Part shown: positions 15,690 through 49,555 of the stretch, in pieces
Numbering within the stretch: the first letter of the stretch is position 1
Layout: every line of letters starts with the position of its first letter
Assembly: GCA_037974665.1 (NCBI GenBank)
Contig: CM075773.1
Coordinates: 64,324,763-64,388,762, forward strand
Source: Ehretia macrophylla
Taxonomy: Eukaryota; Streptophyta; Magnoliopsida; Boraginales; Ehretiaceae
Reading direction: 5' to 3'
Length of the DNA stretch: 64,000 nt
Position numbers and translations under genes: made by a program
The notes under the pieces: generated by a model
What the model was told of the DNA's origin: nothing
Database searches by the model: none
What the model saw: only the letters and a program-made list of their open reading frames with translations

Positions 15690-15945
15690 ATGTTTTTCTC
15701 TATTTTTAAATTTCTCAGATTCTCAAAAAGAGATGTTTTTCTCTGTTTTTCACGTTCTCACATTCTCAAAATTAGGTAAACTGTTGCAACAGCTAGTTAA
15801 AGGATCGGTCGACGTTGCTAGGCGATCCCCTTGGCTGGTTGTATCACCCGACAAAGGTGAAACAACCGGTCGACTTTGCCGATCGATCCCATCGACAAGC
15901 AACCTCGTCCGGCAGCTTCTGTCTTTGTCAGGTGAGGCATTGAGG
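15690..15945 (+). repeat. GTCGACC island A, direct copy of island E
   Basis: An AT-rich lead (TTTTTCTCTATTTTT, CTCAGATTCTCAAAA) is followed by a CpG-rich core with GGATCGGTCGACGTTGC, CCCTTGGCTGGTTG, ATCACCCGACAAAGG, AACCGGTCGAC, GATCCCATCGAC and TCAGGTGAGGCATTGAG. The same order of blocks is found at about 43870-44120 in the same orientation. The core has several CCGGTCGAC half-palindromes. No coding role is apparent. Confidence 0.75.
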
Positions 15946-16442
15946 TTGAGGCATTCAAAGTCTCATTAGACATTTCCATATAGTATAATTTATAACATAC
16001 AAAGAGATTCACATATCAGTTGAATAGATTCACATTGACATTATTAGAATGAGTAGCATTACAGTGGGAGGTCACCAAAATAGTATCTCAAGGTATTTTC
16101 GACATTTGTATCAATCAAGAGATATTGATTTTCCTGAGTTAGTATATTAATGAACAATTGAACATATAGCAGTACTACAGGTCATGATGTAATCTCATAA
16201 AAGATACAAAAAGTAAGCAATTATGGACTAACCATGCAACAGAACAAATAAAAAGTCATCACCAATTCAATTGTCATATTTTGCAAAGTAAGAAACTGGG
16301 ATCCATGAATTTTTGAAAGCTTAAGTAATCAACAAGTTAATATATATATTTAAAAACAGGATTGGCACAGACAAGAGGTCTAGGCAGTTGTGTCTTCATC
16401 AGAACTATCCTCATTTTGCTAAAGACTTCTTTTATCATGTTC

Positions 16443-17745
16443 CTATGTGTTTGGCATTAGAGGAAAATCATATCCTTTCTCAGTAATCCAATGATTGTAC
16501 AAATCCACCCATGAACTGATATTTGACACTTGTTGTTTAAGAGGCTTTATTTCCTTGTGAAAGATGTATTTGACTCTCCTTTCCATTTCGTTCATGCAAT
16601 CTTCAAGGGCAGAGATTAGGAGATTCATGTCAAATGGTGACTGGGTGTTTAATTGAGAAACACTGTTACTTGACCTAGCACATTTCATTCGTTCCCTCTC
16701 AACCGCATCGGTTCTTAAAGATTCTCTTAGGGTTGCTCGAACATCTCTTTCTTTTTCATCTTCATCATCAGAATCGACATCCATCCGATCATATTCATTG
16801 TTTGTGTTAGATTCTTCTTCGACAACTATTTTTTTTCCTTTTCCTTTGACATTTTTCCTCGATTGTTTTCCTGGTTCCCCAATTATAGCAATTTGTTTAG
16901 CTTCAGATAATTTCTCAACTTCACTAAGCTTATATATTCTGCCTTCATAGATAAATAAGCCCATGCGTTTCATAGCCTCTTTATTAAACCTCCAGCTAGG
17001 AAAAAATCTACAAATAGTAGGAAGTGGAACTTCATAGTCCTCAAATATCCGAGTTAGTACCATTCCATATGTTAGGCTCATGATTTTGGTCTTAATGTGC
17101 CACATGTGAGATAGCATCATATATGAAAAATGAATTTTCTTTCTTGTATTGATCATATACATAGTATAGGCGTCATAGTACTGTAATCGACCATCATGAC
17201 CATCTCTAGGCATAACTAAGTTAGTGACAATGTGCAATAATAGCCTATTTCGACCAGTCATATCACGATCATAAAAGGGTATCATCATCATCGTTCAAAG
17301 CTTTATCAATCCCTTCCCATACCATCGACATCATAACATCATTATCATTTACATGCATGTTTGGCCATCCTTTAGCATTATAGTACTTCTGGCCAGTTAG
17401 AGAAAAATCAAACAGATTTGCTAAATAGTCTTCAGTTAAACGAATTTCTTTTCCTTTAACAATTGAAATCAAACTGTGATTAGGACCTTCTTTAAGTAAG
17501 AAATAGAATTCTCTAATTAACTCATTATGCACATGACATTCTACATGTATAAAAGCTTTACAGCCTTGAAATTCTAAGCATTCAATAATATCAGTACCTT
17601 CAAAAGATGAATCCACAATTGGCTTGCCAGCAATCACATTGCACTTTTTGAATTTTTCGCGTATTCTTTGAGTAGAAGTCCCACTTGAAGATGACTCTGC
17701 TTGATTCTTCTTAGATGCTGAACCTCTGCCCATTGTGCGAACCAT
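16443..17745 (-). pseudogene. Putative plant transposon protein (Transposase_32-like) carried by CACTA
   Basis: Two open frames on the minus strand overlap by 23 bp. The upstream one (17745-17269, 158 aa) has a Ser-rich basic N-terminus (SSSSGTSTQRIREKFKK) and an IRLTEDYLANLFDFSLTG segment. The downstream one (17291-16443, 282 aa) has NRLLLHIVTNLVMPRDG, then a basic KNVKGKGKKIVV patch, an acidic DSDDEDEKERD stretch and a C-terminal heptad-like helix (ALEDCMNEMERRVKYIF). The first part of the downstream frame fits what I know of the PF20167 'putative plant transposon protein' family: R-LLHI-T---MPR, a short conserved core, then a divergent charged tail. The two frames probably come from one gene with a single slip in a GAT-repeat tract, or one gene with an unseen splice. 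It runs opposite to the CACTA transposases and lies between islands A and B. The function of the family is unknown. Family assignment is by eye. Confidence 0.65.
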
Positions 17746-17914
17746 GTTGAAAGTCTTTAAAAAATCAGTGAAAACTAGGTTTTTGATGTGTAAGAAGTGT
17801 GTTTATAGAGTTAAAAATAAGTTTAATCGGTAAAATTTGATGTTTGGCAAAAGGGATTTTTAGACTTTGAGAGAGGTTTTTGGCAACAGAGTGTTTGAAA
17901 AGAAATAAAACTGG

Positions 17915-18120
17915 CCAACGAGCGGTTTTAAGTAATGCCCGTCGTGATTTTCTAGCTGCCGATCAATGGCCTTGACTGGTTAGGTTGTCCGGTTCCTTAT
18001 GTTGGGGACGGTCGATATTAACGATCGATGACTTCGACCGGATGGGTTGGCCGGTTAAATATTTTTTTGCCAGTAGATGGTGTCGACTGACCCCATCGTC
18101 CGGATTGGTTGGCCGGCTCT
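17915..18120. repeat. GTCGACC island B upstream of the minus-strand gene
   Basis: A CpG-rich block with TAATGCCCGTCGTG, GGTTGTCCGGTTCC, GACGGTCGAT, CGATCGATGACTTCGACCGG and GGGTTGGCCGGTT. It lies just 5' of the minus-strand gene start (17745), so it is in the position of its promoter or first intron. It ends with GGGTTGGCCGG, the same block that ends the hairpin at 29180-29279. Confidence 0.65.
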
Positions 18121-18685: not shown

Positions 18686-18781
18686 AAAATTTTAATATTT
18701 AGCTTTCAATTTCAAATTAATTCTCTACTAATCTCAATCCTCTTAATTTATTCTTTCGTGAATTAATATTGAGTGGTGAGG

Positions 18782-18843
18782 TTTAGGTTTAGGGTTTAGG
18801 GGTTAGGGGTTAAGTTTAGGGTTTAGGGTTTATGGTTTAGGTA
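18782..18843 (+). repeat. Interstitial telomere-type repeat (TTTAGGG)n
   Basis: About 60 bp contain roughly eight imperfect copies of TTTAGGG (for example GGTTTAGGGTTTAGGGG and AGTTTAGGGTTTAGGGTT), the plant telomere repeat. It is flanked by unrelated AT-rich DNA and lies about 100 bp after the Tekay-like LTR fragment. Confidence 0.8.
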
Positions 18844-19485: not shown

Positions 19486-21012
19486 TGTTGTCCCTTAATT
19501 AAACCTAAGAGGGGGGGGGGGGGGGTGAATTAGACAATATAGACAATAATACAACTTTTTCGATTAAGCAATTTACTTGCAATGATTATTCAAAAACAAT
19601 CTTAAGCTAATGTGCACTTTAACAATATAGAATGTAAGTGAAGTAATTTATCAAACACTTAGTGTGCAGAAAATAATGCAAATAGAGAGTTGAGAGTAAG
19701 AGATTGCAAATCGCGATTGTAGTGTGGTTCGGCCCCTGCCTATGTCCACGACCTAAGCTCCCCGCTTAGGATTTCAACAATCTTCGTTATGGTGGCTCTT
19801 CAAATGTTGGTGAGTTCACAAACCAACTACAACGGTAGTTCAAGCTTTTACAATAATAATAAAAAAAAAATCTTTTTCAATACAAAGCTTTAACACCCAA
19901 CACTTTTGATAAGGAAATCCTTCTTTTCAAAGCGTTACTCTCTCTTTTGATAAGTGTTTGAGATTCACAATAAAAACCCTCTTTTAGGGTAGATGAATAC
20001 AATGAATGCTTCTCTCTCAATATTGCTCACAGATTCTTACTCAAGTATAGCTCAAAGATGATTCAATGATAAGATTTAATGAAAGAACTCAAGAGTAATT
20101 GCTTTGACTCAATATCTTGAAATTTTGCAGTTGAGAGGCATTAATAGAAGCTGAAATGGGTGTAATAAATGCACCCCAACGTTCATAAAATAGCTATATT
20201 TTGAATTAGCATTTTGGCCCGACCGGTCGACCCTTGTGTCGCCGGTCGACCGGTCGAGAGACCCTCGTCCGGTGGACGGGTCTCGGGTGGACGACCCTTT
20301 GGCCACCGGTCAACCAGTCGCCATGGGATCGTCCGATGGGATCAAAACTGCCAGGGTTAGGTTTTAAAAGTGTTTCTTTTGAGCATCTTTTGTAAGACAT
20401 TTTTCAAATATTTTAAAACAATATTTGAAAATTATTATTGAGCATATAGCATTTGCAATACCCAAAACCCCAGTCAAGTCCCAACCGGTACCCCTTATGT
20501 CGCCACGTCTCCTCTTATAACTCATTCTTCATCTACAAAGATCTTCACTTGAATCTTTACAACTTGAGCTTGTAAAGATCTTGACAAAAAGACACTTGAG
20601 TTTGATCATGTTGAGCTATTCATTTTATCTTCATGATTAGATCATTTGAGCTTTATCAACATAATTCTTCATGAACTTGCTCTTGAGCTTGTATAACATT
20701 GATATTCACAAAGTGCTTTGATCATCTCTTCAATCTTCCTTCTTTAGGACAAGATCTTAGCTAGGATGATCACATCTTGAATCTTCATAGATCTTGACCA
20801 TTAAAGTACTTTGATCTTCTCGTTGGGGGATGCCTTTTACTTGATTATTACTTCAATCTTTATGAGCTTACTTAATATGTTGAATATCCTTCAAGCTTTG
20901 ACTAATTCTCAAACAATAAACTCATTACAAGATATAATTAGTCAATAGATCAATTTTATAATTAAGATTTAGTTATCATCAAAATATAAGATTTAAAGTA
21001 TTTAGGCTAACA
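19486..21012 (-). repeat. 3' LTR of the minus-strand LARD-like element
   Basis: It runs from TGTTGTCCCTTAATTAAACC to TTTAGGCTAACA (plus-strand reading). A G15 run at 19511-19525 is only six G long in the partner LTR. A CpG-rich GTCGACC island lies at about 20215-20345, and blocks of GATCTT/CTTGAGCTTG fill the other half. Confidence 0.88.
20215..20345. repeat. GTCGACC island C in LTR
   Basis: The plus strand reads GGCCCGACCGGTCGACCC, then GCCGGTCGACCGGTCGAG, CCCTCGTCCGGTGGACGGG, TGGACGACCC and GCCACCGGTCAACC. It is packed with overlapping palindromes and CpGs within otherwise AT-rich DNA, and can fold into several hairpins. The partner is at 27722-27855, and a related version is in the LTR at 49432-49555. 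Confidence 0.8.
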
Positions 21013-21027
21013 ATCTCCCCCTTTTTT
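21013..21027 (-). other. Polypurine tract of the minus-strand LTR element
   Basis: On the minus strand it reads AAAAAAGGGGGAGAT directly before the 3' LTR, the normal place for priming of plus-strand DNA. A similar CTCCCCCTTTCGCATCATC block recurs near 21220 in the interior. Confidence 0.75.
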
Positions 21028-24000
21028 ATGATGACAAAATCTTATACAATGAAGCACAATAAAATACCATAATTTGATATCAAGGCATAAGTAAGATTTT
21101 CAAGTAGACGTACACAAAACTCCCCCTTACTATATGCATATCAAATTCAAATTTTCATGTTCAAGGTTTCTCCCATAATCTCCCTATATGTTTTCTCATT
21201 CTTATGTTCTTTCATTCTTCTCCCCCTTTCGCATCATCAAAGAGATTTAAGCATATGAGGGGTAAGATAACATCAGAATAAGACAATGCATAGATAAGCT
21301 CAATAAGATTTTTTCAAAATATCATCTCAATGGGATTTTGAACATTTATCCTTTATGAAAAATAGCACTACAAGGCAAAGCTTCCCCTTGCTAAGTGCAT
21401 ATCATAAAAAACATTTTAACTTAGAGCATATGATCCAAGCACAAACTAAAATATGCAAATGATATCACTATGTCACCTCTTCATTTGATATCAAGTTCAC
21501 AAAGTATGTAAGCTCTCTTTGAGAATATGTATAGGTAAGGAAATAGTAAACACATAAAATCCTCATTCATTATATTGTATAACTCTCCATATCTTATATT
21601 GTTTCTTGGTCATACAATAACATTTCTATGTGATCTTATCTAAAAATAGCACTATAGTGGGATTTTTGGGAAATAGTACAACAATGGAATTTCCATGAAA
21701 ATAGCATCACAATGGTCATTTTTACCAAGGCTCCCCCATACTAAGTGCATAATAAGAACAAATACTTCTCTTTTAGATCATGTATCAATCACATCTCTCT
21801 CTCCCCGTTTGTAATCAACAAAGAAACAATTTTTCACACTAAGGAGGTGTAAGATATAATATATATGCTTGTAAGATAGCATTTAGGTACATGAGTTTAC
21901 CTTTCTTGAAGCATGCATTTGCTTTCTCCAAAACTTTTATTCTTTGATACATTGTTATCATTTCATTATTGTTTCTCCTCCTTTGGTACTCAACCAAAGC
22001 ATATGACAATTTTATAGCATAACAATTGATATATCTCTTTTCAAGAGCAATGCATAAGGATGATTTCATTTAGACATGTAAGCTCCCGCTTTGTTGCATG
22101 CATATCTTAATCATATTATCATTGCACACTATGAGCATTAAAATCATTCACATATAGCATAAGTCATAGCATACAAAATGATTTATATTTCTCTCTTTTT
22201 TAGAAAAGGATACCACTGTTATATCTCCCACTTTGGTGTTCAACTAAACATATAGCAAATTTAACACTATAAGAAACGAATAGTATTCAAGGCATTCATC
22301 ATAAATTCCAATTCTTTTAAAATTTTCTTATATTCCTCATTTGGCATGATATTTAATTTCTCAAATTCATTTGACATTTCATTCATGTTGATATCATGCA
22401 CACTTCTCCTTTATGATCATTATGAACAAGTAATAAGAACACTAAGGAGCAAGTAGTAAAAATACTTAAGAAGATATGATAAAAGCCAATTCATGGAGGA
22501 ACACGAGTTTTAGTTCAAGAGTTTAATCAAAATCCATGGAAGATAATCTAGAGATGGTAATGGTATGTATGTTCAACAATATTTTTCTCCTCAAAAGTAC
22601 ACATCTTTATATAAGCACATGCCATATACAATCAAGGCTTTCGGATATACTTTTCTTCAAAATATTCATCTCAATGCATGTCTATGTTATTCTCATATGA
22701 GTATAGAATACATGCTAGAACCAAGTATCTCAATGTATTATAATGATTTGTTAAGCACAATAGTCATTTCATATTGAGATAAAGACAAGTATGGTCAATA
22801 GTATACTCCATCAAAGGTTATGATAATATTTTGTATTGTGATAGAGTGACACTTGAAATTTCCTTTTGTAATACTCTTAATGAGAAGATTGGAACAATAT
22901 TGCAAGTAAGCACATAAGAGCATAACCATGATTACATTGGTTTTAGAGGCAATTGGATATAGAATATTATAGATCATACCTCTATACTTCTTTTCCATCA
23001 ACCAATATTACCTTATCTCAACTTTGTAGAGCTTGGTTGATGTTTTCATTTGAATCTTAGTTCATTTCCTTCACTAAGCCCAATCTTCTTGATTTGTACT
23101 ATTGTGTGCTAGACTTGATTGATGAATACTTCTCCTTGTTTTTCTTAATTGAGAGTCCAAGAAGGAACTTATAATTCTTCCCTCATGCTCATATTTGAAT
23201 AATCTATGCATGCTTTTAAGGAAATCTCACAAAGTCAAGGATTAGTTGCTCCAGCAAGATCAAATAGTCCAACAAGGTCCTTAAATCAATTCTAGAAAAA
23301 ACTTTAAGTGTGTTGACCTTAGTTGAATCAAATCGATATTTACCAACCATATATGGCATTATTATCAAGTATCTATGCTTGTAACAATGTAAATTTAAGA
23401 ATTGAAATCAAGTAAACATGTCTTCCTACTAAACATTTACATCATATGCACTCAATCAATGATACTTCAACAGTTATCTTTTTCTCTTGTATATGCTAAT
23501 GAGATGAACATACTACTTTATCAATATCAAGAGACAAGTATAACAAGTATGTTTATTGCTATAACACATCATTTTCAACAATTTGTTCAATTTGATAAAG
23601 AAACCCATTACGTTCACAAAAGATATTTGAATCTGAGAGAGTTCTTATACCTTTCGGTGAATTACCTAGAATCCTATCGTTTGGATGATCTTTCATATTC
23701 TTTTAAAATCTTAGGGATTTTGATCAATGCTTTGTTTGTTGTTCATCTTGTTTTGATCTTTGTTGCTTTTCCTCCTATAAGATTGGTTGAACTCTTTGAT
23801 TTTATTAGTCCTTTGAAGCACTAGGAGATCTATCTTTTTGAGTGCCTACATCATCATTAATCTTTCTTGATGCAAAGAGATTAGCATCATCAAAGTTCTT
23901 ATGCATTTTATATGTTCATGATGTCAAATATGATCAAGAGCACAATCCATCAAGAAGTTATGATAACGTTTTAGTATGGTGATGGAAAGACAATTCAAGT

Positions 24001-25952
24001 TTCCTTTTACAATGATCTAATGAGTGAGCAATATCGCAATTAAGCACACAAGAGCATTGTTATGACATATTAGAGGTAATTGATTGAAATACATTATTAA
24101 GCATACCTCTATACTTCTTTTTGTCAACCAATGTACCTTTTCTTAACTTTTGTGGAGCTTTGGTATATTCATTTGAGTTCTTGACCATTTGGACTGTTGA
24201 TATACTCACTTGAGTTTTTGACCACTTTGACATGAATAAGTACAAGCTTATTCATTTGATTCCTTTGTGATCTTGGTTTGACTTGTAAATACTCCTTCTT
24301 GATTTACTTGATTGGGAATTTATGGAAGAATTTTGAATCTCCTTTCATTGCTAAATTCCATTTCACTTTGCAAGCTCTTAGAAAATGTTTCTCAAGGAGA
24401 TGGATTAGTTTTACCAATCAACAATCAAATGCCCAACAAAGTTTTTGTATAATAATTTCAAGTAGAGATATAATGCTTCGTTGAATGAATCTCTCATTTA
24501 TCAATTTTGGTCCTTTAATTCATCAAGAAGTTTGACACTACATCCAATCATACAAGATCAATCAAAGATTTTCACTTCATTATGTACTATCAACACATTA
24601 TATCATCATTGAGAGCCAAGTGCCTAACTTTGAATTACAATATATACCAAATTCTTGACTTTCAACATTTCAATCACATCAATTTTCTCTTTAAAGCTAT
24701 CATCATTATAAACGATAAGACATTTCATTTTTCTTTCAAGATGTTGTGAAATTATGCATTTCAACTAATCACAAGGCAATCATGAAAATAACATTCCTTG
24801 TTATGACATTTTGAATGCTATGATCAATATTTTTTTTTACTGTTTATGAGTGTGGTTAGTATTCCATAAGGACTTTTACTTTATCTCTTTAATACTCTAT
24901 GTCTTCTCTAAGTATAGACATGACATTCAAATCAAGAAAAAAACTTGTTATGACATTTATTCTTTTGGACATCAAAAGATCATATTCACTTATTTATTCA
25001 ATCCATTTCCATTAATTAAAACTATCATTTTAAACAAGTATAGAATCAAGCTCATAAGTTGCATCCCATTTCATCATGCATATCATTCAACCATTTATTT
25101 TGCACTTGTAATAATTATCACATTCAACATTTGATAATATCAAACTTAAGTATATATGGTTCACTTCATATGACATTCATACATGAGTATTCATTCATTC
25201 AATTTAATTTTATACCACAAAATTTAAACAAAAGAAATTGATTCATGGGTCACATGGGTGATAAGGTTCCTTTAGCTTCTATCTTCCACCACTAGAAGTT
25301 AGTTCATCTTTTTCAAATGAGAACCTTAATTTTCTCAATATAACCTTTTAACATTCTTTAGAAGCACCTCAAATTCATTTTCACTAAAGTGACTTCCATT
25401 GTACCAATGTATTCCTATCCTATTGGATATATGTTGTATCTCATATTCAAACACCAAGTATGGCTTAGCTCATCCAATTTAAAGGAATTCTTAAGACAAT
25501 AAAGATTATAACCATGATTATTTCACAAATCAACAAATCATCATCACAAAGAATTACCTTTTCTCATTTGACCTTTCTTGGCACGATTATCAAATTTATC
25601 ATAATACAATTCTTTTCTAGCATTCAAGCCATTAAGTTTACCATGTTCATACAACACATGTATATTCAAAATCACATGACATAACAATGCATATAACATC
25701 TCATGCATAGATTCATCAAACTTATTGGCATGATCATTTTCACTTTCAATCACATATAATATCATATAGTTGATTAAGCAAGTTGAATTTTAAAACATTC
25801 TCAAGAAGCACATATACAAAATAAGTTCAATATTACCCATGCTTCCTCATCTCAAAGATCTTGCCTCTTTCATGAGTTGCATCACCATCATCTTTGGTAT
25901 TGGTTGACATTCCTACAACAAAGCAAGATCTAGGTACCCATCTTTAATTGGG
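21028..25952 (-). other. Noncoding interior of the LARD-like element
   Basis: Nearly 5 kb of AT-rich DNA without polymerase or integrase motifs on either strand. Its open frames (for example 23402-23824 and 24850-25134 on plus) are hydrophobic or low in complexity and run against the element's direction, so I do not call genes. Short CTCCCCCTT-type tracts recur around 21015, 21120, 21220 and 21360. A 220-bp segment is duplicated within it (see separate entry). Confidence 0.6.
22785..24150. repeat. Internal direct duplication, about 22785-23035 and 23920-24150
   Basis: Both segments contain, in order, a TCCATCAA(A/G)...GTTATGATAA block, TTTCCTTTT, AATATTGCAA/AATATCGCAA, TAAGCACA, AAGAGCAT, TTAGAGG(C/T)AATTG, and CATACCTCTATACTTCTTTT followed by CAACCAAT. 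They are diverged, so the duplication is older than the insertion or ancestral to the family. Confidence 0.65.
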
Positions 25953-26672
25953 TCATCGGGGGTTAGTCACATTTGTTGTAGCTTTAACAATCCATTTGTG
26001 TTTTAGCCACCACAAAACTTTTGTTCCACATTCAAGTAGTTTGTTATCATAAAACAATACAGCAAGTTGTTCTATTTCATCACAATAAGCATGTTGATTT
26101 ACTTTAGAGAAAGATGACACATTAGCATTTGAATATTTGAAGAAACATTTCTTCAAGAGATTTTGAGTGAGACATGGTTTACATCCTAACAAATTTAATT
26201 TACATGCTATGTATTGCAAACCATGCACAATATCCCATTTTTCTTTTTCCTTGCAAGATTTAGTGATTCTTTCATTCAACTCATGATACATTTTCTTCAA
26301 ACAATAAATCTCATCTTTTAAGACTTTGTCAAACAAGAAAGTGTTTTCTATTTCAAACTTATAGTTGGTTTTAATAACATGAGCATTCTTCTTTTCAAAA
26401 TCTTTTAAATCAAGTATGACACCTTTCACTTTTTCAAGAATGCTCACATTTCTAGGTATAGCAAACGTTAGTTCATAATGAATACTAGAAAGGGATGCCT
26501 CCAAATTATCCATTGTACGATCATTGTTACTAGATGAGGAACAATAAGATTCATAAGATAGGTTTACCTCTTCATCTATTATAACGAAGCATACACCATT
26601 TTCTTCTTCTCTTGATTCTCCTCTATTATCTCCTTTTTGCTCTTGATATAGTTCTTCAAGGAGATTCCACAT
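25953..26672 (-). pseudogene. copia-type gag-like frame of the LARD-like element
   Basis: A 239-codon frame on the minus strand starts MWNLLEELYQEQKGDNRG. This fits the 'E-W--L---Y' end of a copia-type (UBN2-like) gag domain. The rest is rich in Lys, Asn and Glu and includes CLKKMYHELNERITKS, probably a coiled coil. More gag-like sequence lies upstream towards the primer site (to about 26930). Gag would form the virus-like particle. The gene is a fossil with a few breaks. Confidence 0.6.
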
Positions 26673-26992
26673 CTCATGGGTGGATGAACATTCTCGAATT
26701 TTTTCAAACTATTGATCATTGAAAGCACAATAGAGAATATGTATAGCTTGAGCATTTTTGGTCAATTTGGCAATGTTTTGCTCGGTTGACTCATCTTCAA
26801 CTTCGTATGGCCCATGCTCAACAATATGCCACAATGTGTAGTCCACGGATTGAATATATGTTGCCATATGATTCCTCAACCTCATGAAAACAAATGAGGT
26901 CTATCAATTGAATATCCTTCAATGTGAGGAGATGTAATAGTATATGCCATGATCATGACCTTACTAGACGTTAAGCTATATGTAAAGCCCTA

Positions 26993-27005
26993 GCTCTTGA
27001 TACCA
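26993..27005 (-). other. Primer-binding site of the minus-strand LTR element
   Basis: The minus strand reads TGGTATCAAGAGC two bases from the LTR end, matching the Met-tRNA primer site TGGTATCAGAGC with one extra A. Confidence 0.7.
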
Positions 27006-27007
27006 CT

Positions 27008-28521
27008 TGTTGTCCCTTAATTAAAACTAAAAGGGGGGTGAATTAGGTTATATAGGCAATAATACAACTTTTTCGATTAAGCAATATACTAGTAATGATT
27101 ATTCAAAAACAGTCTTAAGCTAATGTGCACTTTAATAATATAGAATGTAAGTGAGGCAATTTATCAAACACTTAGTGTGCAGAAAATAATGCAAATAAAG
27201 AGTTGAGATAAAGAGATTGCAAATTGCGATTTTAGCATGGTTCGGCCCCCGCCTAAGTCCACGACCTAAGCTCCCCGTTTAGGATTTCAACAATCTTCAT
27301 TATAGTGGCTCTTCAAATGTTGGTGAGTCCACAAAACAACTATAACGGTAGTTCAAGCTTTTACAATTAAAAAAAAAATCCTTTTCAATATAAAGTTTTA
27401 ACACCGAACACTTTTGACAAGGAAATCCTTCATTTCAAAGTGTTCAACTCTCTCTTTTGATAAATGTTTGTGATTCACAATAAAAACCCTTTTTTAGGTT
27501 GATAAATACAATGAATGTTTCTCTCTCAATATTGCTTACAAATTCTTGCTCAAGTATAGCTCAAAAATGATTCAAAGATGAGATTTAATGAAAGAACTCA
27601 AGAGTAATTGCTTTGAATCAATATCTTGAAATTTTACAGTTGAGAGGCATTAATAGAAGCTGAAATGGGTATAATAAATGCACCCCAACGTTCATAAAAT
27701 GACTATATTTTGAATCAGCATTTTGGCCCGATCGGTAGACCCTTTTGTCGCCGGTCGACCGGTCGAGAGACTCTCATCTGGTGGACAAGTCTCAGGTGGA
27801 CGACCCTTTGGCCACCGGTTGACCGGTCGCCATGAGGTCATCCGGTGGGATCAAAACTGCCATGGTTGGGTTTTAAAAGTGTTTCTTTTGATCATCTTTT
27901 GCAAGACATTTTTTAAATATTTTAAAACAATATTTGAGAATTATTATTGAGCATATACTATTTGCAATATCCAAAACCCCAGTCAAGTCCCAACCGGTAC
28001 CCTTTATGTCACCACGTCTCCTCTTATAACTCTTTCTTCATCTAGAAAGATTTTCACTTGAATCTTTACAACTTGAGCTTGTAAAGATCTTGACAAAAAA
28101 ATACTTGAGCTTGATCATGTTGAGCTCTTCGTTTTATCTTCATGATTAGATCATTTCAGCTTGATCAACATTATTCTTCATGAACTTGCTCTTGAGCTTG
28201 TATTACATTGATACTCACAAAGTGCTTTGATCATCTCTTCAATCTTCCTTCTTTAGGATAAGATCTTAGCTAGGATGATCACATGTTGAATCTTCATAGA
28301 TCTTGACCATTAAAGTATTTTGATCTTCTCGTTGGAAGATGCCTTTTGCTTGATCATTACTTCAATCTTTATGAGCTTACTTAATATGTTGAATATCATT
28401 CAAGCTTTGACTAATTCTCAAACAATAAACTCATTACAAGATATGATTAGTCAATAGATCAATTTCAAAATCAATATTTAGTTATCATCAAAATATAGGA
28501 TTTAAAGTCTCTAGGCTAACA
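27008..28521 (-). repeat. 5' LTR of the minus-strand LARD-like element
   Basis: It has the same end sequences as the left LTR (TGTTGTCCC to GGCTAACA on plus) and is collinear with it, with scattered substitutions and a shorter G run (six). Its GTCGACC island is at about 27722-27855. Confidence 0.88.
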
Positions 28522-34017: not shown

Positions 34018-34023
34018 TTTAGA

Positions 34024-36109: not shown

Positions 36110-36790
36110 ACTTTCAGGGGGTATTTCCTGAAGAATTGCCTAGGTTACCACCTGACCAAGAAATAGAATTTGTGATTGATCTATTGCCAGGAACTAATCT
36201 TATATCTAGAACCCCATATAAAATGGCTCCCCCTGAGTTGCAGGAGTTGAAAATTCAGCTACAGGGTTTACTTGAAAAATGTTTTATACAGCCTAGCTCT
36301 TCACTATAGGGTGCTCCTGTTTTATTTGTAAAGAAGAAAGATGACACTTTACGGTTGTGTATTGATTATTAGGGTCTTAATCACGTGACTGTGAAAAATT
36401 AAATATCATTTGCCACTAATTGAGGAATTGTTTGATCAGTTGTAAGGTGCTGTAGTGTATTTGAAATTTGATTTGAGGCATGGTTATTACTAGTTGAGAA
36501 TCAGAAAAAAAGATGTACCCAAGTCTGGTTTCAGAACCAGGTCCACCCACTATGAATTTGTTGTACTGCCATTTGGGTTGACAAATACTCCAACCGCCTT
36601 TATAGACTTGATGCAGAGAGTATTTAGACTGTACCTTGACCAGTTTGTTGTGATTTTTATTGATGATAGATTGGTATACTCGAAGTCTGATGCAGAGCAT
36701 AAGGAATATTTGAGAATTGTGTTGCGAACCTTGCAGGAACATAAATTATTTGTTAAATTTAGCAAATGCGAATTCTAATTGAAGTAGGTT
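36110..36790 (+). pseudogene. Gypsy reverse transcriptase
   Basis: Blocks in order: [54 protein letters not shown], and the catalytic FIDD region near 36654-36666, then [10 protein letters not shown]-type [18 protein letters not shown] and KFSKCEF. Order and wording match gypsy RT. The region is broken. Confidence 0.9.
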
Positions 36791-37079
36791 GCCTTTTTAG
36801 GCCATATAATATCACAAGAAGGGATATCTGTTGATCCTACAAAAATTGAGGTGGTGATGTCATGGAAAAGACCTGAAACTGTTACGAAGGTTCGTAGTTT
36901 CCTAGGGTTGGTTGGTTATTACCGGAGATTTGTTAAGGACTTTTCTAAAATTGCTGGACCATTGACTTCCTTAACTCAAAAGAAAACTGTGTATAATTGG
37001 GATGACAAATGTGAAACAAGATTTTAGGAACTGAAGAAGAGGCTTACCACTGCTTCTATTCTTACACTACCTGAGGGGA

Positions 37080-37450
37080 CAAATAATCTGGTGATTTATA
37101 GTGATGCTTCAAAAGAAGGTTTGGGCTGTGTTCTTATGCAAAATGGTAAGGTAATACCTTATGTCTCGAGGAAATTGAAGCCCTATGAACTTAATTATCC
37201 TACACATGATCTTGAGCTTGCTACTGTTGTCTTTGCTTTAAAGAAATGGCGACATTACTTGTGGGGTAATAGGTTTGAGATATTTACTGATCATAAAAGT
37301 TTGAAATATTTATTTTCTCATAAAGATTTAAACATGAGGCAAAGGCGTTAGCTAGAGTTGTTGAATGACTATAATTGTACCATTAGCTACTTGCCAGACA
37401 AAGCTAACACTGTTGCAGATGCATTGAGTCGGAAAGCTACTGTGGCCAGT
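37080..37450 (+). pseudogene. Gypsy RNase H
   Basis: [19 protein letters not shown], then [34 protein letters not shown], and CTISYLPDKANTVADALSRK, the standard gypsy RNase H series with acidic residues in TD and DAS positions. It removes the RNA template. Confidence 0.9.
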
Positions 37451-37599
37451 CTGATTATAAAGAACTGGGAAACTATGGAGGAATTGTGTTTGTGGAAACC
37501 GAAGGTTACAGAAACAGGTACTCAGTTTGTAGGATTATAAATTCAGTATTTACTGTTGTCTAGAATCAGGGAAGCACAACAATCTGATCCTTAACTATT

Positions 37600-38160
37600 G
37601 AAGATTCTAGAGAAGTCTAAAGGGAGAGAGTCCGATTTCAAGCTGCATGATGATAGACTACTCAAGTATAAGAATATAATTTGCATTCCTAGTGGTTCAG
37701 CTGTGAAAGATGAAATTCTTGTTGAGGCTCACAGTACTAAGTACACTATTCACCCTAGTAGCATCAAGATGTACAGGGACTTGAAACAAAGCTTATGGTG
37801 GAATAATACGAAGAGGGAAATAGCTGATTATGTGGCTAAATGTCTAACTTGTCAGAAAGTTAAAGCTGAACACTAGAGACTTGCAGGATTATTGCAACCA
37901 TTAGAGATTCATGTGTGGAAATGGGATCAAGTTACTATAGACTTTGTGTCTGATTTGTCAAGGTCACCGCGAGGAAATGATTCTGTTTGGGTTGTGGTTG
38001 ATAGATTGACGAAAACCTCACATTTCATTGCTACAAAGAAGACCGACAACCTTGATAAATTAGCTAAGCTGTATATTGAGAACATTGTGAGACTGCAGGG
38101 GGCTCTAAATAGTATAATGTCAGACAGAGATCCCAGGTTCACATCACAATAACAATTACC
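37600..38160 (+). pseudogene. Gypsy integrase, zinc and catalytic parts
   Basis: The zinc-binding part shows the Cys pair in VAKCLTCQKVKAEH near 37834-37876 after the histidine segment. The catalytic core shows WDQVTIDFVSDLSRS, VWVVVDRLTKTSHFI and SDRDPRFTSQ. It is incomplete compared with the family. Confidence 0.88.
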
Positions 38161-38790
38161 AGGGTACCATTGGTATGGCGCCGTACGAGACATTTTACGG
38201 GCGTAAATATAAATCCCCATTGTATTGGGAAGACGTAGAAGAAATGAAAACTATTGACCCAGGTATTCTACCTGAGATAATAAAGATAGTTGACAATGTG
38301 AAACTTATTAAGAAAAGAATTCTTACAGCTCAAAGCCGACAGAAGAGTTATGTTGATAGACACCGATGTGACTTGGAGTTTGTTGTAGGCGATTATGTGT
38401 TCTTGAAAGTCTCACCGCGTAAAGGTTTGATTCGACATGAAACGGGAGGTCAACTCAGTCCTCGATATGTGGGGCCGTTTAAGATAACTGAGAAAGTTGA
38501 TGATTTGGCTTACAGATTGATACTACCTCCGAGTTTGAAAAAATGCATAACGTGTTCCATGTGTCGATGTTGAGGAAGTATCAGCCAAATCCTTCACATA
38601 TTCTGAAGCCGGAACCGTTGGAGATCGGTGAGACACTGACCTATGTGGAGAAACCTCTTCGGGTTGTTGACAGGAAGATTCAGGAACTCAGAACTCAAAG
38701 TATTCCAATGGTAATGGTTCTTTAGGATCATCACAAAGTTGAAGATGCCACTTGGGAGCAGGAAGAGTAGATGAGATATCGTATTCCAGA
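38160..38790 (+). pseudogene. Gypsy integrase C-terminal and chromodomain-like end
   Basis: MAPYETFYGRKYKSPLYW, VGDYVFLKVSPRKGL (GPY/F-type region with GPFKITEKV), MHNVFHVSMLRKYQPNPSHI, and a tail resembling the chromovirus end with DHHKVEDATWEQE near 38730. In Tekay elements this tail directs insertion to heterochromatin (known for the lineage, inferred here). Confidence 0.85.
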
Positions 38791-38832
38791 GTTGTTTCCT
38801 AAATCATGTAAGAATTGCGTGGAAGCAATTAG

Positions 38833-38850
38833 TTTAAGGGGGAGAGGATA
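38833..38850 (+). other. Gypsy polypurine tract
   Basis: TTAAGGGGGAGAGGATA directly precedes the 3' LTR. Confidence 0.88.
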
Positions 38851-41322
38851 TGATGCCCAGGAAATTGTATCATATTCATAAATAATTGTAGCCTATCTTT
38901 TGTGCATTTTAATGTATTTTATTTCTAATTTAACTATGTTTATTTGATGGTCACTATTTATAAGAAAATCAACTGTCTACTTTGCTCAAATTAGAATTTT
39001 TCCTAGATAGTATAACTTATAAAAAGAATCAAGAACTTGTAATTTTGAGCTTTGGAGGTCAGGAACACGCGTTAGGAAAATAATTCGTGCTTTGTTTGAA
39101 TAGTGTAACATTAGTTTTAACTAGTTAGCATTTAATTGGAGTTTTAACTTAGTTTGACTAAGATATACTAGCATTTGACTTATTATACTAACATATACAT
39201 ATGCATATATCACCTAGCAATACACATATATGCAAAATGTTCAAAAAAACAAAAGAATTAATACCCAAAATACCTCTCCCAAACCTGACAGCCCAAAGAA
39301 GGAAATAGGAGAATAAAAAATTGTTCAATCCTTGCATCTTAGCCTCCTAGCTTGACTTTGGAAGGTTTTTGGAGCACCTAGGAGCATTACCAACTTGTCT
39401 ACAACTATAAATTGTGAGGGAGTTTGCATTTGTAGCATGTTAAAGTTTATGTCATCTTTTGAGATTTTGTGATTTGATGATTTTGGCTATTGAAATGCTT
39501 AAATATTATGATATACATGCTATACATGATATATAGACCATGCTTGAGTAGTTTGATAGCTATTTCCATGGTTGAATGCTTGAGTTCTTGAAAGAGATGA
39601 TGAATAGTGCTTGATTTTAGGGTTTTCCTATAACTTGTTATTTAGAATGAATTGATGCCACCTATAGGTGCTCTAGATGATATTGAAACTAGTTAAATGC
39701 TCACGTATAGTTAAATTGCCCGAAATTGAGTTAAAATGCGAATTAGCTAAAATTTCAAAAGGGGGTTTTTCATGAAATGTAATCCCGGCACATTTGGACC
39801 TTAGATTAGGTATCCATGGGGCAAGGAAGCACTTCCGTTGCGTTAAATTGAGGGCCGGATGGGGTAGTTGTAGTTAAAATCCACTCAGGGCCTTCCCGAG
39901 CTTTTGTCGGGTTTTCAGGGCGTAGATAGGTGTCTTTTGGTATTTCCTATAAATGTAGTATGATTGATTTATAGATTTGGGTCCTCAAATTTTGAATAGA
40001 AGAAGAATTATATAGTTATCAAAAGGTAAAATGTGAGAAATGGATACCTTTGTGCTTGTATGAGCTTGTAGATACTTGTTATGTGTTTAAATGCATGTCT
40101 AAGGTATAATCAAGCTAGTTGAAGAGTTTGTGGAAAAATATGATATTTGTCCCTTTTGTGTTTATATAGTTATTTCATGTCTAATGGCTTATATTGTGAA
40201 TAACTGCGAGGGCGGCCTATTTTGTCGTCCCTCTTACGTGATTATTGATATCCTTGGCTCTCGTGATCTTGACTTGGGATTGCGCAACCTTTCGGACATG
40301 GTAGCGTCGTGACAATCTCCCTCGACTACTATGGTGCCTATTCCTTTTCTCACCGAGTATACTCCACTACCCCAAAGGCGTGGTTCACCTCATTGGGACA
40401 TATGGATCTACCTCGGGAGGAATGGGTTGTAGGATCAGGGTAAATCCGGAGTACCCTATTTGGAGGAATAAAGGGTTTGCCGACATTCGCTTGAAGTTCT
40501 TGGCTCGTGGATCGTGACTGAAGACAAGAAGATGAACCGTATCCTTTTTATACATGTTTAAATATTTGTTTGAATAGCTTGTTATATTGTGTTGCTTATG
40601 TGATTATCCTTGTTGCATTGCACGAAACCATTTGCGAAAACACCCCCGATTACCTGTATCCCCTCCCTCGCTGGGCAACTTTGTTGCTTACTCCTCTTTT
40701 AACATGTTTCAGGAGAGGCTGAGGTGAATCCCCAGCTGGTAGCTGTAGAGGAAGAAGAGGAAGTTCAAGTAGAGCAACTTCCATGATTACTTGTGTGTTG
40801 AGGTTGGATGTTCTGCGCAGACTATGTGAAAATGTTGTGTGTTCTTCATTTTGAGACCTTAAGGTCTTATATGTAGATGTGTTGAAACTTAAAGCTTGTA
40901 ATTAACTTGTAGTCTTGAATGTTGTTGGAGTAGTTGGCATGTAATAGTTAATGGTAGACTTACTGCTTTGGTTGCATGCTTGTGTGAAAAGGCTTGTTAA
41001 AGGGAGGACCTAATATATAAGTAAAGCTTGTGAATATAATTAGAGTGGTAAGACAAGTAAGTTATGTTTTAAAGTTGTTATAACCACATTTTGCATGCTT
41101 GTATGATATGCTTTTATTGAGTTCCAATGCTCGGATGGCCTTGAGGAGTTTGTTGGTTATGTTGAATTTGAAGGATGGGATTGTATGAGAAGTTTGGTTG
41201 TAGAAAGGGGGTTGAATGTGATTATTTGCAGGTACTAGTTAGTCCACAGTACAGAGGAGACTCTGTCCGTGTACCGGGTCCGGACTTAACCTTTGGTGTA
41301 GGGTTGGGTTCGGGGCGTTACA
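38851..41322 (+). repeat. Gypsy 3' LTR
   Basis: The start is TGATGCCCAGGAAATTG and the end is TCGGGGCGTTACA. It is collinear with the 5' LTR over 2.47 kb. Its first dozen bases differ from the 5' LTR start more than the rest does. Confidence 0.92.
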
Positions 41323-42051: not shown

Positions 42052-42393
42052 TGCCAACAATCAATTGTCTAGATGTGTATACACTATATTCGTGCGATAT
42101 CTTCTTGCACCAATTGATTATGTATATTGTACTACCTTCATGTGATATCTTCTTGCACTAACATTAATCTATATAAGTATTCAAACTATAAATATAGATA
42201 TGTTTACATCAATATTTGTTTGTGGTCCAATGCAGCCATGGCGCTAGGTAAAGGTAGAGGCACCGGCGATAGATGATATGTGCCTCCTGGAGCAGTACAG
42301 CGTGTTGGAAGAGCAAGCATTAGACGTGGATTAGGTAGTAGAAGTAGATCAAGAATTGGATGTGGATCAGGCACTCGAAGTAAATCAGGAATA

Positions 42394-42609
42394 GGACGTG
42401 GAGCAAGCACTGGACGTGGATCAGCCACTGAATATGGATCAGGCAATGGACGTGGATCAAGCATTGGACGTGGATCAGGCACTGCACGTGGATCAGGCAC
42501 TGCTTGTGGATCAGGCACTGAATGTGGATCAGGCACTGGACGTGGATCAGGCACCGGACATGGATCAGGCACTGGATATGGATCAGAGACTGTACGTGGA
42601 TCAGGCATT
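42394..42609 (+). repeat. 18-bp coding minisatellite, 12 units
   Basis: The unit GGACGTGGATCAGGCACT repeats exactly every 18 bp from 42394 to 42609, with degenerate units before. In the gene's frame it encodes G-R-G-S-G-T. Because 18 is a multiple of three and the unit has no stop in several frames, a second plus frame gives D-V-D-Q-A-L and the minus strand gives V-P-D-P-R-P, producing long shadow frames. Confidence 0.92.
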
Positions 42610-43869: not shown

Positions 43870-44120
43870 GATGTTCTCAGATTCTTTCTCTATTTTTCAA
43901 CTTTTCACATCCTCAAAAGTTCTGTCAAAGTTATATCATTTTATAGAAAACTGGCTTGCTTAACAGATTGGTCAACTTTGCCGGTCGACGCCCTTGGTCG
44001 GTTGGATCACCCGACAAAGGCATAACTTGTCGGTCGACCCCATCGACCGGCATTGTCGACGGACAAGTTATACTTTTGTCGGGTGAGGCATTCAGCCGGT
44101 TGTGCTAGTGTTGTGTGCAA
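43870..44120 (+). repeat. GTCGACC island E, inside a transposase intron
   Basis: The order of blocks matches island A: TTTCTCTATTTTTCAAC, CACATCCTCAAAAG, then TTTGCCGGTCGAC, CCCTTGGTCGGTTGGATCAC, CCGACAAAGG, TGTCGGTCGACCCCATCGAC and TCGGGTGAGGCATTCAG. It lies within the 915-bp intron 43768-44682 of the second CACTA gene. Confidence 0.8.
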
Positions 44121-45119: not shown

Positions 45120-45984
45120 TTAAATATTGTAAATATTATTAGGGACAATTTCGGGGATGAATTTTGCGATAACTATTAGCGATGATATTGCAGGATAAAA
45201 TTACCAACAAAATTCAATATGCTTTTAGTTACGAGTTTTTGCCATGACTTTAGCGACAACATATAGCGACAAAATGTGCGACTATATTTGTGATACCTTT
45301 TTGTCACGACATTTGCTATGAAAAATTTACAACTATTTTTTCGACGAGTTCTTGCCACAACATTAGGTACGACGTCTACAACAAAATTTTTAACTAATTT
45401 TGTGACAAATATTTGCGACGAGTATTTACAACGACATTAGTTACAACATTTATGACAAAAGTTGCGACTATTTTGCGATGAGTATTTGTCACGATATTAA
45501 CTACAAAATTTATGACAAAATTTGCGACTATTTTGCAACAGATATTTGCAACGAGTATTTGCCACGATATTAACTATGATGTTAATGACAAAATTTTATG
45601 ACTATTTTGCGACAACTACTTGCGATGAGTATTTGCCACGATATTAACTACAACATTTAAGACAAAAATTGTGACTATTTTTGCGACAAATATTTGCGAC
45701 GAAGTTTTGCCACGACATTAGCTATGACATTTATGACAAAAGTTGCGACACTTTTTGCCACAAAATGAATATTGTGACGGTTAACAAAACTTATTGCAAA
45801 TTAGTGGCTTTTTGCGACGAAAATATATTCGTCAATATTAGCGACATATTTGCGACTATATAGACATTAACGACGGAGGGTTTAGAGACGCAGTCATTTT
45901 TGTCTCTAATTCGTCTCTAAATCAAATTAGCGACGAATTAGAGACTAAAATCCACCGTTACAAAACAACTAATTTCTTGTAGTG
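45120..45984. repeat. CACTA 3' subterminal repeats and terminus
   Basis: About 750 bp of GCGAC/GTCGC-rich units of about 65-80 bp (TATTTGCCACGATATTAACT, CATTTATGACAAAA, TTGCGACTATTTTGCGAC) are followed by TCTCTAATTCGTCTCTAA and the terminus, whose inverted reading is CACTACAAGAAATTAG. The motif type matches the left end. ATA follows at 45985. Confidence 0.85.
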
Positions 45985-45987
45985 ATA

Positions 45988-47009
45988 TATATACCAATAA
46001 AAATTACTTATATAACCGATTTGTAACTTTTATAGCAATAACCATACAATTGAAGTAATCTATATTAGGGAAGGAATGACTAATATTCCTCTACTTTTAC
46101 AAGTAATAGCTAAAAAATGTAAAATATATATATTGGGTTAAATTTCACTAATGTCACTAATTTTATTCAAATTTTGAAGTAAATCCTCAAAAAGTCATAT
46201 TGAGTTTCTAATATTCTACAAAAATTGTTAAATTGATCCCTTACACTATCTTATCTTAAAATTTAGACAAAAAATCATGAAATTACTTATGTTCCCCCGT
46301 AAAATTATATTTTGAATTTTTAAATTGATCCCAAATATTACTTGACTTTCAAGCAGTTCCACTATTTTACTCAAATTTTCAAGTTAGTCCCTCTAAAAAG
46401 GAGACATGTATGGTTACATGGACATTTTATGTCATACTTTAGAAAAAGATAATGGTAAGGGAAAATTTGAACTCTTATGGTAAACATTGATGAATTGTAT
46501 AATATGACTTTTGTAACTTTAAAGATTATTTTAAAAATTTTAGTAAACATTGAGACAAGTGAAGAATTTTTTATTACCATTGTCAAGGAACGACGTGGAC
46601 TTAATCATAAGGATAGCTTTGACGCCCAAACCAGTAATCTATTAACTGAAAGGGTTTAATATATAAGCAGAGAGTGTTAAGGATTGAATGAATCACCTTT
46701 CACCATTGATTGAAGGGGCTATTCATACTGAACGACCTCCCGACTTTTACGGAATTAGAGAGACAATTCATGACTTGAACGCTAAGGATCATTACTTTCC
46801 TAGATAGACTTCCACTCATTATGGAGCTTCCTTTGGTGGTCCTTCATCAAGGGACCTCGGGACATCCAACAAATGTGCGAGGCTGACTAAGGGCATCTAG
46901 TCTTGGGTTTGTGAGGTGTAAATCTGAGCTTAGGCTTGAATGCTCGACCTAAATTACTAGACTCGATGATAGCTTCTATAGGTCGAAAAGTCCTGACCCT
47001 GACTCATTT
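45988..47009. other. AT-rich DNA with one-sided MULE-like end, no gene
   Basis: From about 46135 the sequence GGGTTAAATTTCACTAATGT with later GTTAAATTGATCCC and CAAGTTAGTCCC repeats looks like one end of a Mutator-like MITE, but I cannot find the inverted partner. The remainder has no recognisable open frame. Confidence 0.4.
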
Positions 47010-47321: not shown

Positions 47322-48317
47322 TGAGGCTTAGTAGGCAACTTAGAAGGATGAGTTTTTGTGACATTATCATATTATTCGATCTAGGTATTATAGACCTTAT
47401 GGTTGTTATTCTATGTACTGACCACGTATAGGTAGAGCAGGCCGAGTTGAGTATAGCTATAGGTTTTGACATAGTAGACCTTGTTCCTTGACTAGCCGCA
47501 AGGACAAACAAAGAAAACTGCCATAATGGGATGAGATTAAGAAAAAGCCAAAAATAGGGTCAAAATCAACCTAAGTGCTTCAAATAGGGTGATCTTGGGT
47601 AGTTGATAACTAACTCTTCTTTTTGTATCTTCTAGACTCTCTATAAAAGGGAGAATAAGTACTATTTTCTATCAAAAGAGGATCAGCAGAAGCTAGTCGA
47701 TTAATAACAAAATGAATTTTTCCAATGTACAAAACAAAAATTTCAAATGGCTTTGACTACATATGACATGCCCCTTGAGATGGAAGTTTCAGACCCTTTG
47801 GGATAGATTTGAGATGAATTTTATCCCGATCCTGGCGATGCAGTATACTTTTGTAAGATTTTTCTACTATTGTGTTGATTTGATTTTTTGGACTTTTGTG
47901 CTGAAAGAGTTTAAGCATATCTTGCTCTAACATTAGTGCCTGACTAAGAGCGTTAAACTCAATGTTCCTAGAAGGCACCCTAGGCATGATATGTCTTTTT
48001 ATTTTTACTGCTTTTATTTTATTTTTCTGAATTATAGATAGCTTCTTGTTTTTGTGAGTTTTCCCATTTTGATCATCCATTAAATTTGATCATGTCTCTT
48101 GTATTGCTATTGCACTCTATTGTTATATATACTTATTTTTTCTATGTCTTTTTAGGTTCTTTTCCACTTTGTTGAGAAGAGATTTGAGGAAGTCAATGAT
48201 AGCATCATCCATGTCATAGCCATTGGACACTGGGTAATATATTTCCTAATTTTCCCCTCCACGGTGCCTTTTTTTATATTTTCATTAGATATTTGCTTAT
48301 TGTACTTTGGTGATATT
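47322..48317. other. Probable decayed gypsy interior
   Basis: No clear domain can be read. The minus-strand frame 47757-48080 is lysine-rich and unrecognised. The stretch leads into an Athila/Tat-like polypurine/LTR start near 48318. Confidence 0.35.
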
Positions 48318-48571
48318 TGCTTGGGGACAAACAAACTTTAGGTTTGGGGATATTATGCATGTTCATTTGTGCTTATTATTGTTTTCGGTGAAAATTTTGA
48401 AAATTTTGTGTTCATATGCTTTATATTATGTTCAATTGTGTTGGTTTTTTCAATTTTTATGTTTTTATATGGTCTTGTGGTGAATTTTCTTGTAATTGAG
48501 AAGTTGTGATGATGTTGTTGATTAGCTTTCATGAGGTAATTCAGGAGAATAAAAAGTTTTGATTTTATGAA
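48318..48571 (+). mobile_element. Athila/Tat-like polypurine tract and LTR start
   Basis: TTGCTTGGGGACAAACAAAC followed by TTTAGGTTTGGGGATATTATG is the characteristic end of the internal region and start of the 3' LTR in Athila/Tat-type gypsy elements. The same type of tract recurs at 53831-53862. The LTR is cut at 48572 by another LTR. A fossil. Confidence 0.55.
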
Positions 48572-49431
48572 TGTTAGTGCCAAATAATCTTAAGAAGGGG
48601 GGAGGGGGGGGGGGGAGGGGTGAATTAAGGTTATAGCAAAGTATTGCTATTTAAAAATTACTACAATTCACAAAAACCTCTTTGAGACAATTTATCAAAC
48701 ACCTTGTGTGAATAACTAGATAAGAGTTAATATGATGAATAATAATCACACACAAGAGCAAGATAACTACTCTAAACAATATATATGACAATGAATGTAA
48801 ATATAGTAGGAAGAGAAAAATCAAACTCAGTATTTTCAAGTGGTTCGCACTCCCAAAGGCCTAGTCCACCACCTAAGGTCTTCCTCCTTAAGATTTTCTA
48901 AACTCCACTAAATCAATGCCTCTTCAAATGTTGGTGAAGCACAAACCAACTTACAAGTCCACTCTTGAATCCACAAAAGCAAATACAACAATCTCTTGAA
49001 CCCACAAGAGATCAACCAAGCTTCTTCACAAGTAAGTGAAGCTCAAACCTACTATTCCTCTTCCTTTGAGTCCATAAAAGATTTTTCCACACTCTTCTCT
49101 TTACAAGGATTCTCTCAATCTTAATCTAGAGCCCAAGAGTGTATACAATACAAAGATTTGAGTATTTGAATGATAGTAGAATGAAGAACAATCAAAACTC
49201 CTCAATGAGTAGATAATACAATTCAAATATTTGAATGCTCAATAGATTTGCAAGTTATAGCTCAAGCTTGGTGTATATTGATTGAAATCTATGAAATTTG
49301 AAGCTTAGAATCAGTATATGATGCTTTGGAGTTGTTGGAAGAGTTTTTTGATGAAATGGATTGGTTTAGTATTTAAAGAAAATGTTGCAACGACTTTTTA
49401 ACAGCTTTATTTTTAAAACAGCGTTTTGGCA

Positions 49432-49555
49432 TGACCGGTCGACCCCTGCTCCACCGGTCGACCGGTGAAGAGACCCTCGTCTGATGGAGAGGTCTCAGGC
49501 AGACGACCCCTTGAGCATCAGTCGACTGGTTGCCATAGGGTCGTCAGGTTTGATA
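49432..49555. repeat. GTCGACC island F in solo LTR
   Basis: TGACCGGTCGACCCC, CACCGGTCGACCGGTG, GAGACCCTCGTCTGATGG, CAGACGACCCCTTG and CAGTCGACTGG occur in the same order as in island C, with substitutions. Confidence 0.8.

Follow-up and report, generated by a model that had tools for sequence, protein, structure and literature searches.

Palindrome-based CpG islands have been described in Sireviruses, in whose long terminal repeats (LTRs) palindromic boxes with a CGG-CCG core form CpG islands upstream of the TATA box (PMC2829016). The consensus of this box in Vitis is CGGTCGACCG (Bousios et al., 2010, PMC2829016). The motif was called Sirevirus-specific among the Copia elements compared, and CACTA elements are not treated in the parts of the paper that bear on it. 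The present analysis concerns a stretch of 64,000 nt from Ehretia macrophylla (assembly GCA_037974665.1, contig CM075773.1, positions 64,324,763 to 64,388,762 of the forward strand), referred to here as the window, within which all sequence comparisons were made. It contains seven CpG-dense islands, of which A1, A2, B1 and B2 lie in a CACTA (En/Spm) transposon, C1 and C2 in the LTRs of a Sirevirus-type Copia retrotransposon, and C3 in a related, apparently truncated LTR (Table 1).

Comparable modules are known from other transposable elements (TEs). Structured palindromes in maize Copia and Helitron elements have been linked to small RNAs and methylation (PMC10760457). CACTA transcripts are the source of the rice microRNA miR820, which is considered to reduce the methyltransferase DRM2 (PMC4211545), and motif arrays in the non-coding DNA of VANDAL elements are targets of both silencing and anti-silencing (PMC10398659). 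The islands of the window are probably TE-borne, cis-regulatory clusters of CGG-CCG palindromes that would also be hairpin and methylation targets, inherited within each TE lineage.

A palindromic box confined to the islands

The window is AT-rich (GC 0.344) and poor in CpG, with 1071 observed and 1888 expected. The seven islands reported by a first-pass annotation are indeed present, with GC contents of 0.51-0.67 and CpG observed/expected (o/e) ratios of 0.82-1.30, above those of their 1-kb flanks (GC 0.29-0.34, o/e 0.14-0.45). The same annotation had correctly assigned their hosts, namely a CACTA element, with islands upstream of its genes and in an intron, and LTRs on the minus strand. The islands' combined share of the window is 1.5%, and all 19 copies of CGGTCGA, counted in both orientations, lie inside them. 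In simulated sequences this heptamer occurred on average 0.8 times (300 order-1 Markov sequences) or 1.0 times (150 order-2 Markov sequences), with a maximum of 4. The palindrome CGGTCGACCG, counted with up to two mismatches and called the box below, likewise has 19 occurrences, 19 of them inside islands; 60 order-2 simulations averaged 2.2 and never exceeded 7. There are two boxes in A1, three in A2, none in B1 and two in B2, and the counts for the LTR islands are given in Table 1. The exact 10-mer CCGGTCGACC or its reverse complement was found at 10 sites, which are confined to C1, C2, C3 and B2. The earlier claim that the islands are built on one shared palindrome thus stands for these four, but A1 and A2 hold only shorter forms of the 10-mer and B1 has no box.

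CpG density is a poorer guide. Windows of 130 bp with at least 9 CpG occur at 14 places, six of which are islands and eight of which lie elsewhere (for example 13334-13578 and 52600-52915). B2 falls short of this threshold with 7 CpG, and simulated Markov sequences attain 11-12 CpG per 130 bp. CpG density was therefore rejected as the remarkable point. None of these other CpG-dense patches contains the box. What had been called striking in AT-rich surroundings is so with respect to the motif, and the unusual part of the islands is motif and fold combined.

Nor are the islands seven independent cases, because C1 and C2 belong to one insertion and the A and B islands lie in a presumed single CACTA. 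Judged by their sequences, they fall into three separate families, A, B and C. A1 and A2 are 65% alike over 231 columns, and the alignment of B1 with B2 scores 28 against a shuffled maximum of 19.

The suggestion that the islands are a shared structure-forming module is supported by the predicted folds, for which z scores were obtained from 200 dinucleotide shuffles per island on both strands. Six of the seven islands reach a z of -3.5 or lower on at least one strand. B2 stands out (z -11.8 and -14.7), with a predicted bulge-free stem of 37 bp, a 26-nt loop and a minimum free energy of -75.7 kcal/mol (100 nt, minus strand, z -14.7). It is followed by A2 (-6.6 and -6.3), C1 (-3.5 and -5.5), C3 (-5.3 and -4.5), A1 (-3.5 and -4.3) and C2 (-2.8 and -3.9). 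Among 983 plus-strand windows of 130 bp, the four of lowest energy lie on C1, A2, B2 and C1 again. The architecture differs between families: the A and B islands are mainly single long hairpins, that of A1 being less clean than those of B2 and A2, whereas the C islands form several short hairpins. When the C1 fold is laid across the three C sequences, 93% of the cells stay paired.

The Sirevirus-type Copia element and its islands

The Copia element that carries C1 and C2 is inserted in the CACTA, and its LTRs are 91.8% alike. It bears non-coding hallmarks of Sireviruses. First, palindromic CGG-CCG boxes form a CpG island in its LTR; the interior has 0 boxes and the two LTRs have 5 and 4, in a count that does not reproduce the published counting rule. 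Second, the polypurine tract (PPT) of Sireviruses, AGGGGGAG, starts 10 bp upstream of the 3' LTR, is followed by AT/TG and occurs in clustered copies (PMC2829016). The same tract adjoins the 3' LTR here, with two further exact copies at 21120 and 21220; a fourth copy on the minus strand of the window, at 36227, lies inside a Gypsy element. Third, an inverted repeat borders the Sirevirus PPT, and its right arm lies a mean of 28 bp into the LTR (PMC2829016). In the Copia element it is a 22-column local alignment with 19 matches, its left arm ending beside the PPT and its right arm lying about 29-50 bp inside the LTR. Fourth, C runs corresponding to the poly-C integrase signal can be seen by eye before the LTR end in both Copia LTRs, and the C3-bearing LTR piece has them too. 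The published junction of the 5' LTR and the primer-binding site (PBS) reads ATTGG (or AGTGG) followed by TATCAGAGC (PMC2829016), and here AGTGG is followed by TATCAAGAGC, with one extra A in the PBS-like site. In published Sireviruses a conserved TATA box follows the island closely (PMC2829016); the Copia sequence shows TATA-like stretches by eye. Because published Sirevirus LTR boxes with a CGG-CCG core form CpG islands, C1-C3 belong to a type of feature that is known already. The interior is decayed, its sole match being a weak one to copia-type gag (E 0.0095, under the cut-off). It also contains a direct duplication of about 600 bp (65%) at 22765-23346 and 23904-24504.

The C3-bearing LTR piece is 64-68% alike to the Copia LTRs in three blocks, which allows the islands to be compared with the rest of the LTR. 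Three 60-column windows wholly inside the island have identities of 0.73-0.82, and most other LTR windows have 0.33-0.58. A second, lower rise (0.52-0.70) occurs around 27.2-27.4 kb, and values of 0.61-0.75 are attained in a few other windows, all of them short (31-49 columns). Between LTR families, then, the islands are more conserved than their flanks. The island was therefore probably kept by selection while the LTR family was active.

After insertion the island decayed faster. C1 and C2 differ at 16/134 positions, against 93/1374 in the remainder of the LTR (Fisher P 0.035). Changes at CpG positions amount to 7/36 in the island and 7/34 in the rest, and non-CpG G/C transitions to 8/56 and 57/442. 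Because both rates are alike in island and rest, the faster decay is as composition predicts. The pattern agrees with, but does not prove, methylation of cytosines throughout the dead LTR.

The CACTA islands and the origin of the shared box

The CACTA element is identified by its subterminal repeats and transposase domains. Its left end begins at 11864, directly after an ATA, and reads (C)ACTACAAGAAAAA, the initial C being absent; the right end, CTTGTAGTG, is intact, stops at 45984 and is followed by ATA. These two ends appear to belong to one CACTA with nested insertions. The subterminal regions are weakly alike in inverted orientation (58%, E 9e-5) and include tandem arrays at 12010-12554 and 45399-45764, the repeats being of a GCGAC-type motif without the CGGTCGACCG box. 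A tnp2-type transposase is indicated by two matches to Transposase_21 (PF02992; E 8.3e-13 and 3.9e-35), above the curated cut-off. Stop-free pieces of the CACTA also match Transpos_assoc and DUF4216 and, weakly, Transposase_24, and the matches to PF13963 and PF13952 are above the curated cut-off. The minus-strand gene has two weak matches to PF20167, a putative plant transposon protein (E 9e-8 and 1e-3), neither of which reaches the curated cut-off. It faces away from the transposase, and no paper joining the description of PF20167 with CACTA was found among titles and abstract beginnings. The CACTA contains a short run of telomere-like GGTTTAG repeats (18780-18841) and a minisatellite (42323-42607; 15.8 copies of 18 bp) with frames open on both strands.

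Two of the CACTA islands lie upstream of its genes. B1 precedes the first ATG (17745) of the minus-strand gene by 170-375 bp, and the core of B2 precedes that of the transposase reading frame by 348-447 bp. A2 sits in the gap between two stop-free pieces of a TNPA-like region, apparently an intron. B1 is the weakest of the islands, with no box within two mismatches and a weak fold. The first exon of maize En/Spm, the downstream control region, is GC-rich and prone to methylation, and the CACTA islands may resemble it as GC-rich regions close to where a CACTA gene starts.

The steps by which the islands would act can be outlined as follows. The LTR islands C1-C3 would be the repeated-motif CpG islands of Sirevirus-type Copia elements, and they most likely act as binding sites for a host factor that activates the promoter of the element. 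The CACTA would carry its own island families, A and B, with the same box as the LTRs. Long hairpins are predicted for B2 and A2 and, in a less regular form, for A1; the B islands stand before the two CACTA genes, and A2 is in the apparent intron. Any transcript that runs through an island, be it in the CACTA or in the Copia element, would pair with itself, and the island DNA would supply dense CG/CHG sites; the host could therefore use the module as a target of small interfering RNA (siRNA) and methylation.

Several observations weigh against this account. The Copia pol domain was not recovered, five small interior pieces having no Pfam match. The LTR islands have only 3-5 boxes each, against at least 8 per element in published Sireviruses with boxes, and the C island begins 667 bp into the LTR rather than at the published 200-400 bp (PMC2829016). 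B1 folds weakly (z -2.1 and -1.1), and 4 of the 9 lowest-z windows among the 983 are not islands (45826, 45891, 13391 and 59736). Base-pair support for the C fold comes from three sequences, with 3 double changes in 43 pairs, a number reached by 21/500 shuffles, and further pair types are no commoner than in shuffles (433/500 reach the observed value). The covariation backing for this predicted fold is consequently weak. As to methylation, the proposal that the islands are methylated sites is plausible from the 14/16 differences that are transitions, but this share is not significantly above that in the rest of the LTR (63/93, P 0.14).

The origin of the box in two TE superfamilies allows other explanations. 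CGGTCGA occurs 9 times in the CACTA islands, spread over 4/4 of them, against 0.19 expected from dinucleotide-preserving shuffles, of which 0/2000 reach 9. It is conceivable, if doubtful, that one element captured an island from the other and that divergence followed, so that A, B and C would be distant homologues. After masking of the core box, CACTA and LTR islands still have 13 distinct 8-mers in common, against a null mean of 3.5 and a maximum of 12 in 1000 shuffles, although these 8-mers overlap each other. B2 has exact 13-mers in common with C1 and with C3, a length of at least 13 being reached by 7/500 shuffles, and 3 of the 12 CACTA-LTR pairs (A1-C1, B1-C1 and B2-C3) have scores reached by at most 1/300 shuffles. 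In maize, moreover, one palindrome ranks first both among those of Copia elements and among the motifs of structured Helitron regions (PMC10760457), and CACTA elements are said to pick up fragments of host DNA often. Against capture, the 12 local alignments score only 9-20, several pairs are equalled by many shuffles (for example B1-C3 by 279/300, A1-C2 by 163/300), the printed alignments end within 54 columns, and long hairpins in A and B stand against several short ones in C. From the low scores and the different architecture, common descent of the CACTA and LTR islands is therefore possible but unproven, and in our judgement convergence on one host factor is the more likely source of the CACTA box. 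The earlier proposal of one small repeat family copied into several elements is not supported in that form: there are three families, and a single copied repeat unit was rejected, as no CACTA-LTR block exceeds about 54 columns.

In a rather speculative extension, the DNA transposon and the retrotransposon nested in it, members of unrelated superfamilies, might share one regulatory and hairpin module, owing either to capture or to convergence on a common host factor, such that small RNAs or a factor from one family act in trans on the other.

The CACTA hairpins, chiefly B2, might instead be microRNA-like loci. The long, near-perfect stem predicted for B2 agrees with this, as does the precedent of miR820, in which small RNAs from CACTA transcripts have DRM2 as their target. 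The remaining CACTA islands, however, are less regular than B2, and Rfam gave no family match in the window at the gathering score, so that such a role seems unlikely. Alternatively, the boxes might form arrays bound by a protein of the element itself (TNPA-like or the PF20167 product). Such a role would suit islands in non-coding DNA adjoining both CACTA genes, and TNPA on subterminal repeats and VANC on the short non-coding motifs of VANDAL provide precedents. Yet the subterminal repeats, the usual targets of TNPA, lack the box, and why a retrotransposon also has it would be left unexplained; this explanation is distinctly improbable. A by-product of base composition, in which GC-rich patches share words by chance, could appeal to the eight further CpG-dense places but is hardly credible given that these lack the box and that shuffled CACTA islands fall so far short of the nine CGGTCGA copies.

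Other features of the window and comparison with known systems

A Gypsy element is also nested in the CACTA, and a second, small CACTA lies at 50259-52926 (Table 1). Direct repeats at 56469-57850 and 60756-62145 are 86% alike, lie about 4.3 kb apart and show a weak likeness (57-58%) to the Gypsy LTRs; they are perhaps the LTRs of a short or non-autonomous Gypsy relative. The box, with up to two mismatches, is absent from the Gypsy element, the small CACTA and this repeat pair (56.5-62.1 kb). At 12623-14838, inverted repeats of about 300 bp (80% alike) enclose about 1.6 kb that includes a 236-bp direct duplication (13002 and 13314) and CpG-dense patches. This is probably another inserted element with terminal inverted repeats, and no clear target-site duplication (TSD) was seen at it. 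Two stretches that are not islands also have strong predicted folds, with z of -5.5 to -6.6 per 130-bp window: 13391-13520, in the interior of this element, and 45826-46020, in the right subterminal region of the CACTA. A self-complementary palindrome of 460 bp (69%) lies at 54300-54759.

Table 1. Positions of the islands and of the elements and genes around them in the 64,000-nt window.
Feature	Position	Strand	Remarks
CACTA (En/Spm), host of A1, B1, B2 and A2	~11864-45984	+	ends, subterminal repeats, transposase domains
Island A1	15806-15944		12 CpG, o/e 1.10
Minus-strand CACTA gene, two overlapping stop-free pieces	16446-17802	-	weak PF20167 (putative plant transposon protein)
Island B1	17915-18120		17 CpG, o/e 1.30
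Copia LTR retrotransposon, Sirevirus type	19486-28521	-	inserted in CACTA; 5-bp TSD GATAT; LTR pair
3' LTR of Copia element	19486-21012	-	
Island C1, in 3' LTR	20215-20345	-	5 boxes within 2 mismatches
Polypurine tract AGGGGGAG	21015-21022	-	then AT, then 3' LTR (TG)
5' LTR of Copia element	27008-28521	-	
Island C2, in 5' LTR	27722-27855	-	site equivalent to C1; 4 boxes within 2 mismatches
Island B2	29147-29311		GC core 29180-29279; 165-bp palindrome, self-inverse match 74.6%
Gypsy element nested in CACTA	31508-41322	+	TSD ACGTA
Island A2	43968-44102		hairpin 44007-44086
Island C3, in related, apparently truncated LTR (~48.6-50.0 kb)	49432-49555	-	3 boxes within 2 mismatches
Small CACTA	50259-52926		CACTACAAAA ... 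TTTTGTAGTG; ATA both sides; GTGACGAAA-type subterminal repeats

Searches of public collections with a piece of the transposase gave 5 pattern matches in viral_contigs and 89 in genome_contigs, 0 of which were confirmed in either. DNA patterns of the box and the Sirevirus PPT junction matched 2, 2 and 4 stretches; two of these come from genome_contigs and are titled bacterial metagenome-assembled genomes, and the other six are IMG/VR contigs. In the literature, no description of the CGGTCGACCG box in CACTA elements was found in titles and abstract beginnings, to which this statement is confined. The passages of two CACTA papers that were consulted describe subterminal stem-loops and repeats and no comparable islands, and among the matches listed by a text search for CGGTCGACCG and CCGGTCGACC the sole plant-transposon paper was PMC2829016.

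The islands are hosted by two TE superfamilies rather than by one lineage and, between LTR families, exceed their flanks in conservation; the outcomes that the first-pass annotation named as refutations are not borne out. The same palindrome in a CACTA, with long hairpins, would extend a Sirevirus feature to a second superfamily. It would offer a concrete instance in which to ask why hairpins that attract silencing are retained by elements, whether through a shared host factor or through exchanged regulatory DNA, and might reveal how unlike transposons arrive at using one signal, or at being silenced via it. The nested insertions of this locus supply a relative order of events.

The Sirevirus islands are among the closest known systems: both have a CGG-CCG palindrome in a Copia LTR, and the Vitis CGGTCGACCG is identical to the core found here, whereas the LTRs of the window have fewer boxes and a later start of the island (PMC2829016). 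The maize palindromes are alike in that one palindrome occurs in structured regions of two TE superfamilies. They differ in that Copia and Helitron elements share CACCGGACNNNGTCCGGTG there, while Copia and CACTA share CGGTCGACCG here (PMC10760457). Finally, miR820 is, like B2 and A2, borne by a CACTA (PMC4211545); there the element is a source of small RNAs, and here it carries a predicted hairpin.

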